Positions 9,430-60,956 of a DNA stretch of 64,000 bases are shown here, one piece after another (position 1 is the first letter of the stretch; each line of letters starts with the position of its first letter). A program made the position numbers and the translations under genes. Source of the stretch: Georgenia yuyongxinii (lineage in GTDB: Bacteria > Actinomycetota > Actinomycetes > Actinomycetales > Actinomycetaceae); the NCBI RefSeq assembly GCF_006352065.1, contig NZ_CP040915.1, forward strand, positions 2,728,001 to 2,792,000, in the 5' to 3' direction. The notes beneath the pieces were generated by a model, which saw only the letters and a list, made by a program, of their open reading frames with translations, made no database searches and was not told the DNA's origin.

Positions 9430-12093
9430 ATGTCGACCACCGCGCTCAACCTCGTCCTGGACGACCTGCTGCCCGAGGGTGAGACGGCCGCGCCGGACGC
9501 CGACGCCATCTACGCGGCCTTCGAGTCCTGGGCCACCGAGACCGGCCTGACCCTCTACCCCCACCAGGAGGAGGCGGTCATGGAGCTGGTCTCCGGCTCC
9601 CACGTCGTCCTCGCCACCCCCACCGGCTCGGGGAAGTCGCTGGTCGCCATGGGCGCTCTTTTCGCCGCCATGGCCACCGGGCGCACCGGCTACTACACCG
9701 CCCCGCTCAAGGCGCTGGTGTCGGAGAAGTTCTTCGACCTGGTGGGCCTGTTCGGCTCCGCCAACGTCGGCATGGTCACCGGGGACTCCGCGATCAACCC
9801 CGACGCCCCGATCATCTGCTGCACCGCGGAGATCCTCGCCAACCAGGCGCTGCGCGACGGCGCCGACACCGACGCCGGCGTGGTGGTCATGGACGAGTTC
9901 CACTTCTACGCCGACCCCCAGCGCGGCTGGGCCTGGCAGGTGCCCCTCCTCGAGCTGCCGCATGCCCAGTTCCTGCTCATGAGCGCCACCCTGGGCGACG
10001 TCTCCTTCTTCGTCGAGGACCTGCGGCGCCGCACCGGCACGGACGTCGCGGTCGTCGACGACGCCGAGCGGCCCGTCCCGCTGACCTACACCTACTCCCT
10101 CGAGCCCATCCAGGACCTGCTCCTCGAGCTGGTCTCCACCCACCGCGCCCCGGTGTACGTGGTCCACTTCGCGCAGAAGGACGCCGTCGAGCGGGCACAG
10201 TCGCTGACCTCGGTGCAGGTGGCCACCCGCGAGCAGCGCGACCGGATCGCCGCCGCACTGGGCGACTTCCGCTTCGGGCCCGGCTTCGGCGCGATCCTGT
10301 CCCGGCTGCTGCGCCACGGGGTCGGCGTGCACCACGCCGGGATGCTCCCGCGCTACCGCCGCCTGGTCGAGCGGCTCACCCAGGCCGGGCTGCTCGGCGT
10401 CATCTGCGGCACGGACACCCTCGGGGTGGGCATCAACGTGCCCATCCGCACTGTGGTGCTGACCTCGTTGACCAAGTTCGACGGCGAGAAGTCGCGCCAC
10501 CTCTCCGCCCGCGAGTTCCACCAGATCGCCGGGCGCGCCGGCCGCGCCGGGTTCGACACCGTCGGCGAGGTCGTCGTCCAGGCCCCGGAGCACGTCATCG
10601 AGAACGCCAAGGCCCTCGCCAAGGCCGGCGACGACGAGCGCAAGCGCCGCAAGATCGTGCGCAAGAAGGCCCCCTCCGGGGTGGTGAACTGGACCGACAA
10701 GACCTTCGAGCGCCTGCGCGACGCCACCCCCGAGCCGCTGACCAGCCAGTTCCGGGTGACCCACACCATGGTGCTGTCGGTGCTGGCCCGGCCCGGCGAC
10801 CCGGTGGCGGCCATGTACCGCCTGGTCACCGACAACCACGAGCCCGAGCGTGACCGCAACCCGCACCTGCGCCGGGCCATCGAGATCTACCGGTCGCTGC
10901 GCGCGGCCGGCGTGGTCGAGCACGCCGACGCCACCTGGCGCCGCGCCCACCCGAGCGAGCCATATGTTCGCCTGACGGTGGACCTGCCGCGGGACTTCGC
11001 GCTCAACGCCCCGCTGTCCCCCTTCGCGCTGGCCGCCCTGGAGCTGCTCGACGTGGAGGACCCGGACTTCGCGCTCGACGTCGTCTCGGTCATCGAGGCG
11101 ACCCTGGAGGACCCCCGCCCACTGCTGTACGCCCAGCAAAGGGCACTCAAGGGCGAGGCCGTGGGCGCGATGAAGGCCGAGGGCCTGGAGTACGACGAGC
11201 GCATGGCGCTGCTCGAGGACGTCACCTGGCCCCGCCCGCTGGCCGAGCTGCTCGAGGCGGCGCTGGCCACGTACCGGCGGACCAACCCGTGGGTGTCCGA
11301 CTACGAGCTGCAGCCCAAGTCCGTGGTGCGCGAGATGGTCGAGCAGGCCATGACGTTCTCCGAGCTCGTCTCGCGCTACCAGCTCGCCAGGTCCGAGGGT
11401 GTGGTGCTGCGGTACCTCACCGACGCCTATCGCGCGCTGCGGCAGGTGGTCCCTGACTGGGCGCGCACCGAGGAGGTCACCGCCGTGGTGGACTGGCTCG
11501 GGAACCTGGTCCGCTCGGTCGACTCCTCGCTGCTCGACGAGTGGGAGGCCCTCTCCGCCGGTGCCGCGGCCGCCGCGGGCGCCGTCGTCGTCCCCGAGGA
11601 CGCCTCCACCGCCGTCGCCGAGCGGCGCTTCGGCGAGGGCCCCGACGGCGAGGTGGCACTGACCCGGAACCGGCACGCGTTCCGGGTGGCGGTACGCAAC
11701 GCGCTGTTCCGCCGGGTCGACGCGCTCGGGCGGGAGGCCTACGTCGCCCTGGGGCACCTGGACCGGGAGGCGGGGTGGGACACCGACCGCTGGGAGTCGG
11801 CCATGGCGCCGTACTGGGCCGAGTACGACTGGCTGGGCACCGGGCCCGAGGCGCGGGCCGCGTCCCTGGTGAGCATCGTCGAGCAGCCGAGCGACGCCGA
11901 CCTGCCGGCCGCCCTCGCCGGCACCCACCTCGGCGACCTCGCCCCCGGTTCCGAGCGCGTGTGGCTGGTGCGGCAGACCTTCGACGACCCGGCCGGCGAC
12001 CACGACTGGGGCCTGACCGCGCTGGTCGACCTCGACGCCTCCGACGCGACCGGCGCCGTCGTGCTGAAGGTGCTCGACGTCGGCCCCCGCTGA
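9430..12093 (+). CDS. DEAD/DEAH-box helicase with C-terminal DUF3516
   Basis: 887 aa, start supported by GGAGG 2 nt before the ATG. SF2 helicase core: Q-motif region (LYPHQEEAVMELVSG, about 42-56), Walker A ATPTGSGKS (60-68), Walker B/motif II as DEFH (about 157-160), motif III SAT, helicase C-terminal domain with GMLPRYRRLVERL, TDTLGVGINVPIRTVV and motif VI QIAGRAGRAGFD. Residues from about 430 to the end form DUF3516, found in actinobacteria beside this Ski2/Mtr4-like helicase core. It should unwind RNA or DNA with ATP; the biological role is not established. Three copies of the 19-20-bp GAGATGTC repeat begin 22 nt after the stop codon. Confidence 0.93.
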   Translation: MSTTALNLVLDDLLPEGETAAPDADAIYAAFESWATETGLTLYPHQEEAVMELVSGSHVVLATPTGSGKSLVAMGALFAAMATGRTGYYTAPLKALVSEKFFDLVGLFGSANVGMVTGDSAINPDAPIICCTAEILANQALRDGADTDAGVVVMDEFHFYADPQRGWAWQVPLLELPHAQFLLMSATLGDVSFFVEDLRRRTGTDVAVVDDAERPVPLTYTYSLEPIQDLLLELVSTHRAPVYVVHFAQKDAVERAQSLTSVQVATREQRDRIAAALGDFRFGPGFGAILSRLLRHGVGVHHAGMLPRYRRLVERLTQAGLLGVICGTDTLGVGINVPIRTVVLTSLTKFDGEKSRHLSAREFHQIAGRAGRAGFDTVGEVVVQAPEHVIENAKALAKAGDDERKRRKIVRKKAPSGVVNWTDKTFERLRDATPEPLTSQFRVTHTMVLSVLARPGDPVAAMYRLVTDNHEPERDRNPHLRRAIEIYRSLRAAGVVEHADATWRRAHPSEPYVRLTVDLPRDFALNAPLSPFALAALELLDVEDPDFALDVVSVIEATLEDPRPLLYAQQRALKGEAVGAMKAEGLEYDERMALLEDVTWPRPLAELLEAALATYRRTNPWVSDYELQPKSVVREMVEQAMTFSELVSRYQLARSEGVVLRYLTDAYRALRQVVPDWARTEEVTAVVDWLGNLVRSVDSSLLDEWEALSAGAAAAAGAVVVPEDASTAVAERRFGEGPDGEVALTRNRHAFRVAVRNALFRRVDALGREAYVALGHLDREAGWDTDRWESAMAPYWAEYDWLGTGPEARAASLVSIVEQPSDADLPAALAGTHLGDLAPGSERVWLVRQTFDDPAGDHDWGLTALVDLDASDATGAVVLKVLDVGPR

Positions 12094-12114
12094 CCCCTGC
12101 CTCGCCGCACCGGC

Positions 12115-12180
12115 GAGATGTCATCTTCTCCTCGAGATGTCACCTTTCTCGGCGAGATGTCACTTCTTCTTTTGCGAGAC
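12115..12180 (+). repeat. GAGATGTC repeat array, copy A (behind helicase gene)
   Basis: GAGATGTC recurs at 12115, 12134 and 12154 (periods 19 and 20 bp), with a weaker GAGAC at 12176; the units differ in the A/T-rich filler (TCTTCTCCTC, ACCTTTCTCGGC, ACTTCTTCTTTTGC). The same unit lies behind ilvC and gatB. No transposase or open gene is present in the 278 bp between the helicase and ybaK. Confidence 0.85.
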
Positions 12181-32643: not shown

Positions 32644-32676
32644 TGAGGCCGGCCCTCCATCGGAGGGCCGGCCTCA
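32644..32676 (-). terminator. Strong hairpin terminator of ilvBNC
   Basis: Perfect 15-bp stem (TGAGGCCGGCCCTCC / GGAGGGCCGGCCTCA) with a 3-nt loop. It lies 25 bp beyond the GAGATGTC repeats that follow ilvC. Confidence 0.7.
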
Positions 32677-32701: not shown

Positions 32702-32749
32702 GATGACATCTCACGGAGAAGATGACATCTCAAGGGAGAGATGCGGCGG
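32702..32749 (-). repeat. GAGATGTC repeat array, copy B (behind ilvC)
   Basis: On the ilvC strand GAGATGTC occurs at 32724-32731 and 32705-32712, a 19-bp period, with a degenerate GCATCTC unit beside the stop codon. The array fills the space between the ilvC stop (32750) and the terminator. The orientation to the gene is the same as in copies A and C. Confidence 0.85.
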
Positions 32750-33790
<1,041 letters not shown>

Positions 33791-43949: not shown

Positions 43950-44066
43950 GTTCGGCGGTGTCCTACTCTCCCACACAGTCTCCCGTGCAGTACCATCGGC
44001 GCTGAGGGGCTTAGCTTCCGGGTTCGGAATGGGACCGGGCGTTTCCCCCTCGCTATGACCGCCGTA
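43950..44066 (-). rRNA. rrf: 5S ribosomal RNA
   Basis: About 117 nt. The minus strand begins TTACGGCGGTCATAGCGAGG and ends GTAGGACACCGCCGAA, so the two ends pair as in all 5S rRNAs. The central CCATTCCGAACCCGGAAGCT is the conserved loop B/C region. Ends are set by the helix and may be off by a few bases. Confidence 0.95.
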
Positions 44067-44190
44067 ACTCTATGGAGATGTACCCGTGGGCCCTTTGTCC
44101 AACATGGTGTTGGGGGTGGGTTTCTCGGGAACCGTACAGTGGACGCGTATGCAGTGCTTTTACTTCTTCTCACCGGGGTGAGTGTTGTGG

Positions 44191-49184
<4,994 letters not shown>

Positions 49185-59322: not shown

Positions 59323-59358
59323 CGGCCGACGGCCCCCCTTCCGGGGGGCCGTCGGCCG
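59323..59358 (-). terminator. Terminator of gatCAB operon
   Basis: Perfect 16-bp stem (CGGCCGACGGCCCCCC / GGGGGGCCGTCGGCCG), loop TTCC, directly abutting the GAGATGTC repeats. Confidence 0.75.
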
Positions 59359-59425
59359 ATGACATCTCGCGCAGCAGATGACATCTCGCGGAAGAGATGA
59401 CATGTCACCAAGGAGGTGGCATATC
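59358..59425 (-). repeat. GAGATGTC repeat array, copy C (behind gatB)
   Basis: On the gatB strand the units lie at 59418-59425 (GATATGCC, degenerate), 59399-59406 (GACATGTC), 59380-59387 and 59361-59368 (both GAGATGTC), an exact 19-bp period. They sit between the gatB stop (59451) and the terminator. Confidence 0.88.
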
Positions 59426-59450
59426 GGCGTGCGCTCTGCGGGTTCCGCAG

Positions 59451-60956
59451 CTAGCCGATGCGCTCCATGAGCAGCTCGCGCACGCGCGCCGCGTCGGCCT
59501 TGCCACGGGTGGCCTTCATGACCGCGCCGACGATCGCGCCTGCCGCCTGGACCTTCCCGCCGCGGATCTTCTCCACGACGTCGGGGTTCGCCGCCAGGGC
59601 CTCGTCGATCGCCGTGTCGAGAGCGCCGTCGTCGGAGACGACCTCGAGGCCACGGTCCTGGACCACCTGCTCGGGTGAGCCCTCCCCGGCCAGCACGCCT
59701 TCGAGCACCTGCCGGGCGAGCTTGTCGTTGATGCGCCCGGCCTCGACCAGGGCCGCGAGCTGGGCTACTTGCTGCGCGGTGATCGCCAGCTCCTCCAGCG
59801 TGACGCCGTCGGTCTTGGCGGTGCGGGCGAGCTCCCCCATCCACCACTTCCGCGCCGCGGCCGGGCTCGCCCCGGCAGCGACCGTGGCCTCGACAAGGTC
59901 GCCGGCACCCGCATTGACGAGGTCGCGCATCTCGGCGTCGGAGTAGCCCCACTCGCCCTGCAGGCGCCGACGGCGCACGGCCGGCAGCTCGGGCAGGGTC
60001 GCCCGGATCGCCTCGACCCACTCACGCGGGGGCGCCAGGGGGACGAGGTCCGGCTCGGGGAAGTACCGGTAGTCCTCGGCGTCGGACTTGACCCGCCCGG
60101 GCGAGGTGGTGCCGGAGTCCTCGTGCCAGTGCCGGGTCTCCTGGGTCACCGTGGCGCCGGCGTCGAGGATCGCGGCCTGTCGGGAGATCTCGTAGCGCAC
60201 CGACCGCTCGACGGAGCGGAAGGAGTTGACGTTCTTTGTCTCGGTGCGGGTGCCCAACGGTGAGGTGGGCGTGGGCCGCAGGGAGACGTTGACGTCGGCG
60301 CGCACGTTGCCGCGCTCCATCCGCGCCTCGGAGACCTCCAGGGCGCGGAAGATGTCACGCAGCGTGTTCACGTAGGCCCGTGCCACCTCCGGGGCCCGCG
60401 CCCCGGCGCCCTCGATGGGACGGGTGACGATCTCCACCAGCGGGATGCCGGCGCGGTTGTAGTCCACCAGGGAGTACTCGGCGCCGTGGATCCGGCCGGT
60501 CGCACCGCCGACGTGGGTGTTCTTGCCGGCGTCCTCCTCCATGTGGGCGCGCTCGATGTCCACCCGGAAGACGGTGCCGTCCTCGAGCTCGACGTCGAGG
60601 TAGCCGTCGAAGGCGATCGGCTCGTCGTACTGGGAGGTCTGGAAGTTCTTCGGCACGTCCGGGTAGAAGTAGTTCTTCCGGGCGAACCGGCAGGTCTCGG
60701 CGATGGTGCAGTTCAGCGCGAGGCCGATCTTGACGGCGTACTCCACCGCCTTGCCGTTGACCACCGGCAGGGCGCCGGGCAGGCCCAGCGAGACCGGGGT
60801 GACAGCGGAGTTGGGCTCGGCGCCGAAGGTCTGCGGGGCGCCGTCGAACATCTTCGACTTCGTGCCCAGCTCGACGTGCACCTCGATGCCCAGCACGGGG
60901 TCGTAGCGCTTGATCGCGTCCTCGTAGTCGACGAGGTCGACGGTCTGCGTGCTCAT
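59451..60956 (-). CDS. gatB: Asp-tRNA(Asn)/Glu-tRNA(Gln) amidotransferase subunit B
   Basis: 501 aa from the ATG at 60956, overlapping gatA by 4 nt. Kinase/tRNA-binding subunit that phosphorylates Glu- or Asp-tRNA. Seen: [20 protein letters not shown] (about 23-42), [91 protein letters not shown] and a C-terminal tRNA-binding YqeY-like tail. Complete length. Confidence 0.97.

Follow-up and report, generated by a model that had tools for sequence, protein, structure and literature searches.

Three genes in one stretch of the Georgenia yuyongxinii genome are each followed, shortly behind their stop codons, by tandem copies of the same short word, which raises the question of whether these copies are a functional element of gene ends or the remains of something mobile. 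The stretch, referred to here as the window, comprises 64,000 nt of the genome (G000; a single contig of 4,171,640 bases).

Results

A preliminary description of the window proposed a family of direct repeats with two to four units per locus at a period of 19–20 bp, and this agrees with the three arrays listed below, which contain three, two, and three cores spaced by 19 bp, with one step of 20 bp. The arrays start 21 nt (helicase), 18 nt (ilvC), and 44 nt (gatB) downstream of the stop codons, within the distance of about 50 nt given at the time, and all three share the strand of the preceding gene. Genes in the list were identified by gene call and domain match, and all other features from the sequence.

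9430..12093, + strand: upstream gene, DEAD-box helicase with DUF3516
12094..12114, + strand: C-rich tract from the helicase stop codon (12091-12093) to the array
12115..12165, + strand: helicase array, three cores, spacing 19 and 20 bp
32750..33778, - strand: upstream gene ilvC (KARI domains)
32732..32749, - strand: tract from the ilvC stop codon (32752-32750) to the array
32703..32731, - strand: ilvC array, two cores, spacing 19 bp
32645..32675, - strand: GC-rich hairpin downstream of the ilvC array, putative terminator
59451..60956, - strand: upstream gene gatB
59407..59450, - strand: tract from the gatB stop codon (59453-59451) to the array
59359..59406, - strand: gatB array, one GACATGTC and two GAGATGTC cores, spacing 19 bp
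59324..59357, - strand: GC-rich hairpin directly after the gatB array, putative terminator

The window contains 12 copies of the core GAGATGTC, where 1.99 would be expected, and 0 of 100 shuffles reach that number; 7 of the 12 copies fall in the three arrays. Single cores outside the arrays lie at window positions 1179, 3604, 7520, 9376, and 58569, where chance would account for about 2 in the window. The window also holds a complete rRNA operon (16S, 23S, 5S) at 43950-49182 on the minus strand, and rRNA is the sole Rfam family found there at gathering score.

Across G000 the family proves larger than first reported, with 91 exact pairs of the form GAGATGTC-N9..14-GAGATGTC (reversed control pattern, 0) and 247 units at no more than three mismatches to GAGATGTCATCTTCTCCG (control, 0). 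The unit reads GAGATGTCATCTTCTCCGY, with a 19-bp step in 96 of the 109 neighbour spacings below 80 bp, and the last unit of an array ends at about GAGATGTCAT. The conserved part is a core of ~10 bases, to which a fixed spacer is added only where a next core follows. The left flank of the arrays is rich in C and has a weak CCCGC ahead of the first core, and the arrays themselves have a GC content of 49%, compared with 76% for other gene ends (first 25 nt). A variant array with a 21-bp period is found at G000:C1:3060227-3060297 (L065:1728-1798), where four cores are joined by a different spacer, GAGATGTCACCCGATCACCCC.

Placement was tabulated in two overlapping samples of G000, one of 61 stretches (the window and 60 others) picked by motif alone, and one of 800 kb chosen without the motif, with genes called by a codon model trained on the window and p values taken from simple nulls, each test singly. 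The motif-chosen stretches hold 122 arrays, 70 of which have two or more units; 4 of these 70 lie inside called genes, and the 66 intergenic ones have a stop codon upstream in 54 cases, a start in 11, and no called gene in 1. Where a stop lies upstream, the array is 6–44 nt away in 46 cases, overlaps the stop in 3, and is further off in 5, compared with random intergenic positions, which have an upstream stop in 48% of cases and one within 60 nt in 15%. The 800 kb, of which 15.5% is intergenic, contain 37 arrays including single units, 28 being intergenic (23 after stops, 5 after starts) and 9 lying in called genes. Of the 28 intergenic arrays, 21 have the orientation of the gene before them and start no more than 60 nt past its stop codon, against 13.7% at random (p = 3.2e-13). 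The rule first seen at the three window loci thus extends genome-wide, and the copies are not placed at random relative to genes.

The rule has exceptions, with 11 of the 66 intergenic multi-unit arrays of G000 lying antisense. Arrays are found at 7 of 66 gene ends with a convergent neighbour and at 4 of 115 with a codirectional one (gaps of at least 60 nt). As the element is carried by 20 of the 686 genes in the 800 kb, it is no general terminator. The genes that carry it are as unrelated as had been claimed: 129 Pfam families are matched by the 61 upstream proteins, and the commonest of them occurs in two. Apart from the three window genes, gene functions are taken from this tally, of which the 25 families inspected belong mostly to metabolism and translation and include no transposase. 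A C-rich stretch followed by repeat copies, mostly sense-oriented, thus marks the end of roughly a hundred or more genes without kinship.

The tract between stop codon and first unit is distinct in composition. With gene ends whose first unit lies less than 10 or more than 60 nt from the stop excluded, it contains 58% C and 19% G in G000 (69 ends), compared with 41% and 34% at 107 other ends (p = 1.7e-17). Two relatives from the genus show the same, with 61% C and 17% G in G003 (25 ends) against 42% and 34% (47 others; p = 2e-7), and 51% and 22% in G008 (16 ends) against 41% and 38% (19 others; p = 0.0015). A C-rich, G-poor RNA segment, one of the characters of Rho-dependent terminators, is present in all three species, with segments in which C exceeds G marking Rho-utilisation sites in the available account (PMC9160355).

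Two of the window arrays had been described as running into strong hairpins. Such hairpins are present after the ilvC and gatB arrays, but do not characterise the family as a whole. The best hairpin reaches -20 kcal/mol or below at 21 of the 80 array-bearing ends and at 31 of the 92 others (p = 0.32), and the medians are -16.1 kcal/mol after arrays, -16.0 for random 80-mers, and -17.5 for other gene ends, which do not differ. An adjunct to intrinsic terminators, as the two window loci suggested, is rejected on these 80 array ends, and the same comparison lends no support to arrays substituting for hairpins. Of the 84 arrays with an upstream stop, 31 have an inverted partner no more than 160 nt downstream, and the other 53 have none. 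Covariation between facing arms is absent in G000 (18 pairs; 1049 of 2000 shuffles do equally well) and in G003 (16 pairs; 597 of 2000), and pairing is therefore not the conserved property there; the G008 arms covary (n = 8 pairs with 0–3 mismatches; equalled by 16 of 2000 shuffles).

Relaxed units in the nine genus genomes number 266 (G000), 211 (G003), 89 (G008), 37 (G001), 20 (G002), 15 (G004), 10 (G007), 8 (G005), and 6 (G006), with reversed controls in the same order giving 3, 2, 0, 1, 1, 1, 7, 2, and 2, which places G005, G006, and G007 near background. The spelling differs between species. G003 uses GAGACGTCAACTCCTCCGC or GAGAGGTCAAGTTCTCCGC among others, in arrays of up to 11 units with a 19-bp period in 110 of 131 spacings, G008 has mostly single units spelled GAGMGGTCAAGTNCTCGCA and a 19-bp spacing in 0 of 8 cases, and G004 has five GACACGTC cores in 19-bp steps behind the helicase gene (L198). 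Four G003 arrays of 6–11 units (L154, L129, L140, L149) have variable positions that are alike within and different between arrays, a likeness that looks as it would after local expansion.

The placement behind stops recurs in the relatives, with 34 of 48 intergenic arrays of G003 and 22 of 26 of G008 in unit-centred stretches lying behind a stop and the rest (14 and 4) behind starts. In 400 kb of each genome chosen without the motif, stops and starts account for 6 and 3 arrays in G003 and for 9 and 1 in G008, or for 16 and 10 and for 10 and 1 when counted by unit. Antisense copies make up 14 of the 48 unit-centred arrays of G003 and 10 of 26 intergenic units in its 400 kb, and the orientation rule is weaker in this genome than in G000 and G008.

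Among the eight other genomes, helicase orthologs carry units in G004 and G008, each spelled differently from G000, gatB orthologs carry units in G003 alone, G002 having one related word, and ilvC orthologs carry a sense unit in 0 of 8. In G008 and G003 stretches selected without the motif, a unit is carried by 3 of the 14 genes orthologous to unit-bearing genes of G000, compared with 13 of 682 genes overall in the same stretches. A biased sample, motif-chosen on both sides, agrees with this picture, and one motif-chosen on neither side (13, 9, and 1 pairs) is uninformative, with no unit on either side. Arrays thus persist at some genes despite the change of spelling, and are gained or lost at most. 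The exact-unit pair at up to two mismatches matches 2 of 99 relatives, G000 and G003, whilst the exact 19-bp pair was found in 0 of 395 other genomes of the phylum and the relaxed pair in 0 of 395 other genomes of the order, the eight other genus members lying outside both samples. A longer pattern had no match in a broad genome-contig collection, a shorter one matched 7 stretches from unrelated organisms, about the number expected by chance arithmetic, and viral contigs and plasmids gave no match, in collections that may omit records near this genome.

The possibility that the repeats are ends of a lost insertion element, or flank a transposase, had also been raised. In the families covered (rve and Y1) it finds no support. 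The 30 integrase-type (rve) matches inspected with their flanks, out of 69 in the genus, have no unit at up to three mismatches in or beside them, and a Y1_Tnp (RAYT-type) transposase was found in 0 of nine genus genomes, with 5 of 14 control genomes matched by the same profile search. A target duplication is unconvincing, the best of 343 settings being a 3-mer at 10 of 124 elements compared with 3.6 in shuffles. We have provisionally set aside insertion-sequence ends, on the inspected rve matches and the target duplications, and have rejected a REP/RAYT element, on the Y1_Tnp result. Array DNA has nevertheless spread from one locus to another, whether through transposition or through conversion between units, as shown by a 135-bp composite (a unit, ~100 bp, and a unit end) seen only in G000 among the nine genomes (0 of 8 relatives), in four copies with identities of 100, 98, 92, and 81% at G000:C1:503054, 581778, 934290, and 1878055 (L255, L256, L258, and L257, respectively). 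The edges of the composite coincide with unit edges, its ends are direct and not inverted, and its middle ~100 bp has an inverted repeat of its own, GGAAATGCTCGCG.

Discussion

We tentatively interpret the arrays as cis-acting, factor-dependent elements of gene ends, in which a rut-like tract and an oriented array are read by a lineage-specific protein, and from their placement we infer a role in termination or mRNA stability, as was first suggested for the window loci. The sense strand is C-rich and G-poor for ~10–45 nt behind the stop, a composition resembling that of Rho-utilisation sites, and the one to eleven copies of GAGnnGTCAnnTnCTC that come after it, with a 19-bp period in G000 and G003, may serve as directional binding sites on the DNA. 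A lineage-specific protein bound to them would act as a one-way obstacle that slows or halts RNA polymerase, and the transcript would be released by Rho, loaded on the C-rich tract, or by the bound protein itself. The spelling of the sites would then drift together with the protein, species by species. Counting for such an element are the stop-proximal sense placement, the 19-bp period, the C-rich tract, the absence of covariation in G000 and G003, the sharing of respelled units between orthologs, and the unrelatedness of the upstream genes. Against it count the lack of a match to the repressor profile described below, the insignificant likeness to the L5 and Bxb1 sites, the small number of genes concerned (20 of 686), the 11 of 14 orthologs without a unit, the antisense arrays, the 9 of 37 arrays inside genes, and, in G008, the missing 19-bp period (0 of 8) and the covarying facing arms.

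A selfish or passive dispersed repeat, copied by a transposase, gene conversion, or biased DNA uptake and surviving mostly in the tolerant stretch directly after stops, with the species spellings as separate recent bursts, is somewhat unlikely but still a serious rival. It would account for the 135-bp composite with its edges at unit edges, the copy numbers that vary widely over the nine genomes, the high turnover of arrays at orthologs, and the G003 arrays that look locally expanded; copying of the composite does support this explanation, but is equally a route by which a functional site could spread. However, the Y1 transposase was found in none of the nine genomes, the inspected rve matches lack units, the target duplication is unconvincing, and the composite ends are direct. 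Furthermore, a burst alone does not yield a prevailing orientation at 6–44 nt from the stop, nor the C-rich tract.

Prevailing sense orientation behind the stop codon is also what would be seen if the units acted at the RNA level, bound in the 3' UTR by an RNA-binding protein or small RNA that sets mRNA stability or fate whilst transcription is not stopped. A period of 19 bp is no whole number of helical turns, which fits such a signal, as does the low GC content of the arrays relative to other gene ends, with which they should fold little. However, facing units lack covariation in G000 and G003, the within-unit pairing of G000 is, as judged by eye, not kept in the G003 and G008 spellings, and the window has no Rfam family other than rRNA at gathering score; a single-stranded binding site would still be compatible with all of these, and overall we consider an RNA-level signal decidedly unlikely. 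A hairpin or cruciform of the REP/BIME kind, with inverted pairs acting as a bidirectional terminator or gyrase site, is very improbable. Whilst the inverted partners of 31 arrays, the covarying pairs of G008, and the higher frequency of arrays at convergent ends all point towards it, the majority of arrays have no partner, the missing covariation weakens it for both G000 and G003, and a Y1 transposase was found in none of the nine genomes.

If the arrays do stop transcription, as the factor-dependent gene-end element would, they represent a way of ending bacterial transcripts that relies neither on a hairpin nor on Rho alone, and its code, which can be read and varies from one sister species to another, would allow the co-change of factor and site to be followed. 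If they are selfish, they form a repeat family narrowly addressed to gene ends, and no known mover accounts for it. On either reading the element is clean and testable, as its place, direction, and spelling can be altered singly.

Comparison with known systems

The unit string was not found in the literature searched, and the available portions of the literature on intergenic and gene-end repeat families yielded no description of this family. Rho-dependent terminators share with the array tracts a C-rich, G-poor RNA (the C>G bubble), however rut sites are, as far as the available text goes, defined by composition with no fixed repeat word required, and the tracts are short compared with the 70-nt windows scanned for them (PMC9160355).

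REP/BIME/REPIN elements resemble the arrays in having more than 100 dispersed intergenic copies and composite arrays, and REPs are reported to assist Rho-dependent termination, according to the accessible account (PMC2817692). In contrast to these elements, the array unit is directional and has no conserved palindrome, and the Y1 transposase is found in none of the nine genus genomes; a palindrome with compensatory changes is absent in G000 and G003, with covariation seen in G008 (n = 8). The DUS of Neisseriaceae, as described in the portion available, likewise form species dialects of one word, with inverted pairs associated with terminators (PMC3630211). However, with 2426 and 5918 copies for two dialects and intragenic positions being common, they differ from the array units, which are ~250 (247, far below DUS), tandem, mostly intergenic, and sense-oriented. 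The intergenic TAACTGA repeats of Beggiatoaceae (169 sets) are also short direct repeats at a preferred gene-relative place, with a role that their description, in the part available, leaves unproven; unlike the arrays, they are built from a heptamer and lie mostly just upstream of start codons (PMC4679880).

Nearest in mechanism are the stoperators of cluster A phages such as L5 and Bxb1, which, in the available parts of their descriptions, are short, asymmetric, and mostly intergenic, with one prevailing orientation, a lineage-dependent spelling, and an effect on elongation that is lost on reversal (PMC3029335, PMC6550527, PMC9283540, PMC5712189). The array sites are likewise short, asymmetric, mostly intergenic, of prevailing orientation, and spelled by lineage, and in intergenic gaps they are oriented with transcription as stoperators are, with exceptions mostly in G003. 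In contrast to phage stoperators, they lie in a host chromosome as tandem 19-bp arrays behind stops, number ~250 units, and are preceded by a C-rich tract. Identity with the L5 and Bxb1 stoperators by sequence is rejected, with 7–10 of 13 positions matching and significance in 1 of 12 comparisons. The units match the L5 consensus at 8–9 of 13 positions (equalled by 7–40% of shuffled units) and that of Bxb1 at 7–8 of 13 (33–91%), except for the G004 spelling, which matches at 10 of 13 on the antisense strand (1.1%); the other 11 of the 12 comparisons, made with L5 and Bxb1 only, are no better than 6.7% of shuffled units. A profile built from six phage stoperator repressors was run against 1.12 Mb of G000, which with overlaps counted amounts to about one quarter of that genome, and against 0.53 Mb of G003 and 0.46 Mb of G008, with no match. 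A stoperator principle at work in a host chromosome, by which the genus would end part of its transcription units with oriented tandem roadblock sites, a protein of its own that reads them, and a site alphabet that changes with it, is on balance unlikely. By analogy, the arrays may work like phage stoperators, rather than being stoperators.
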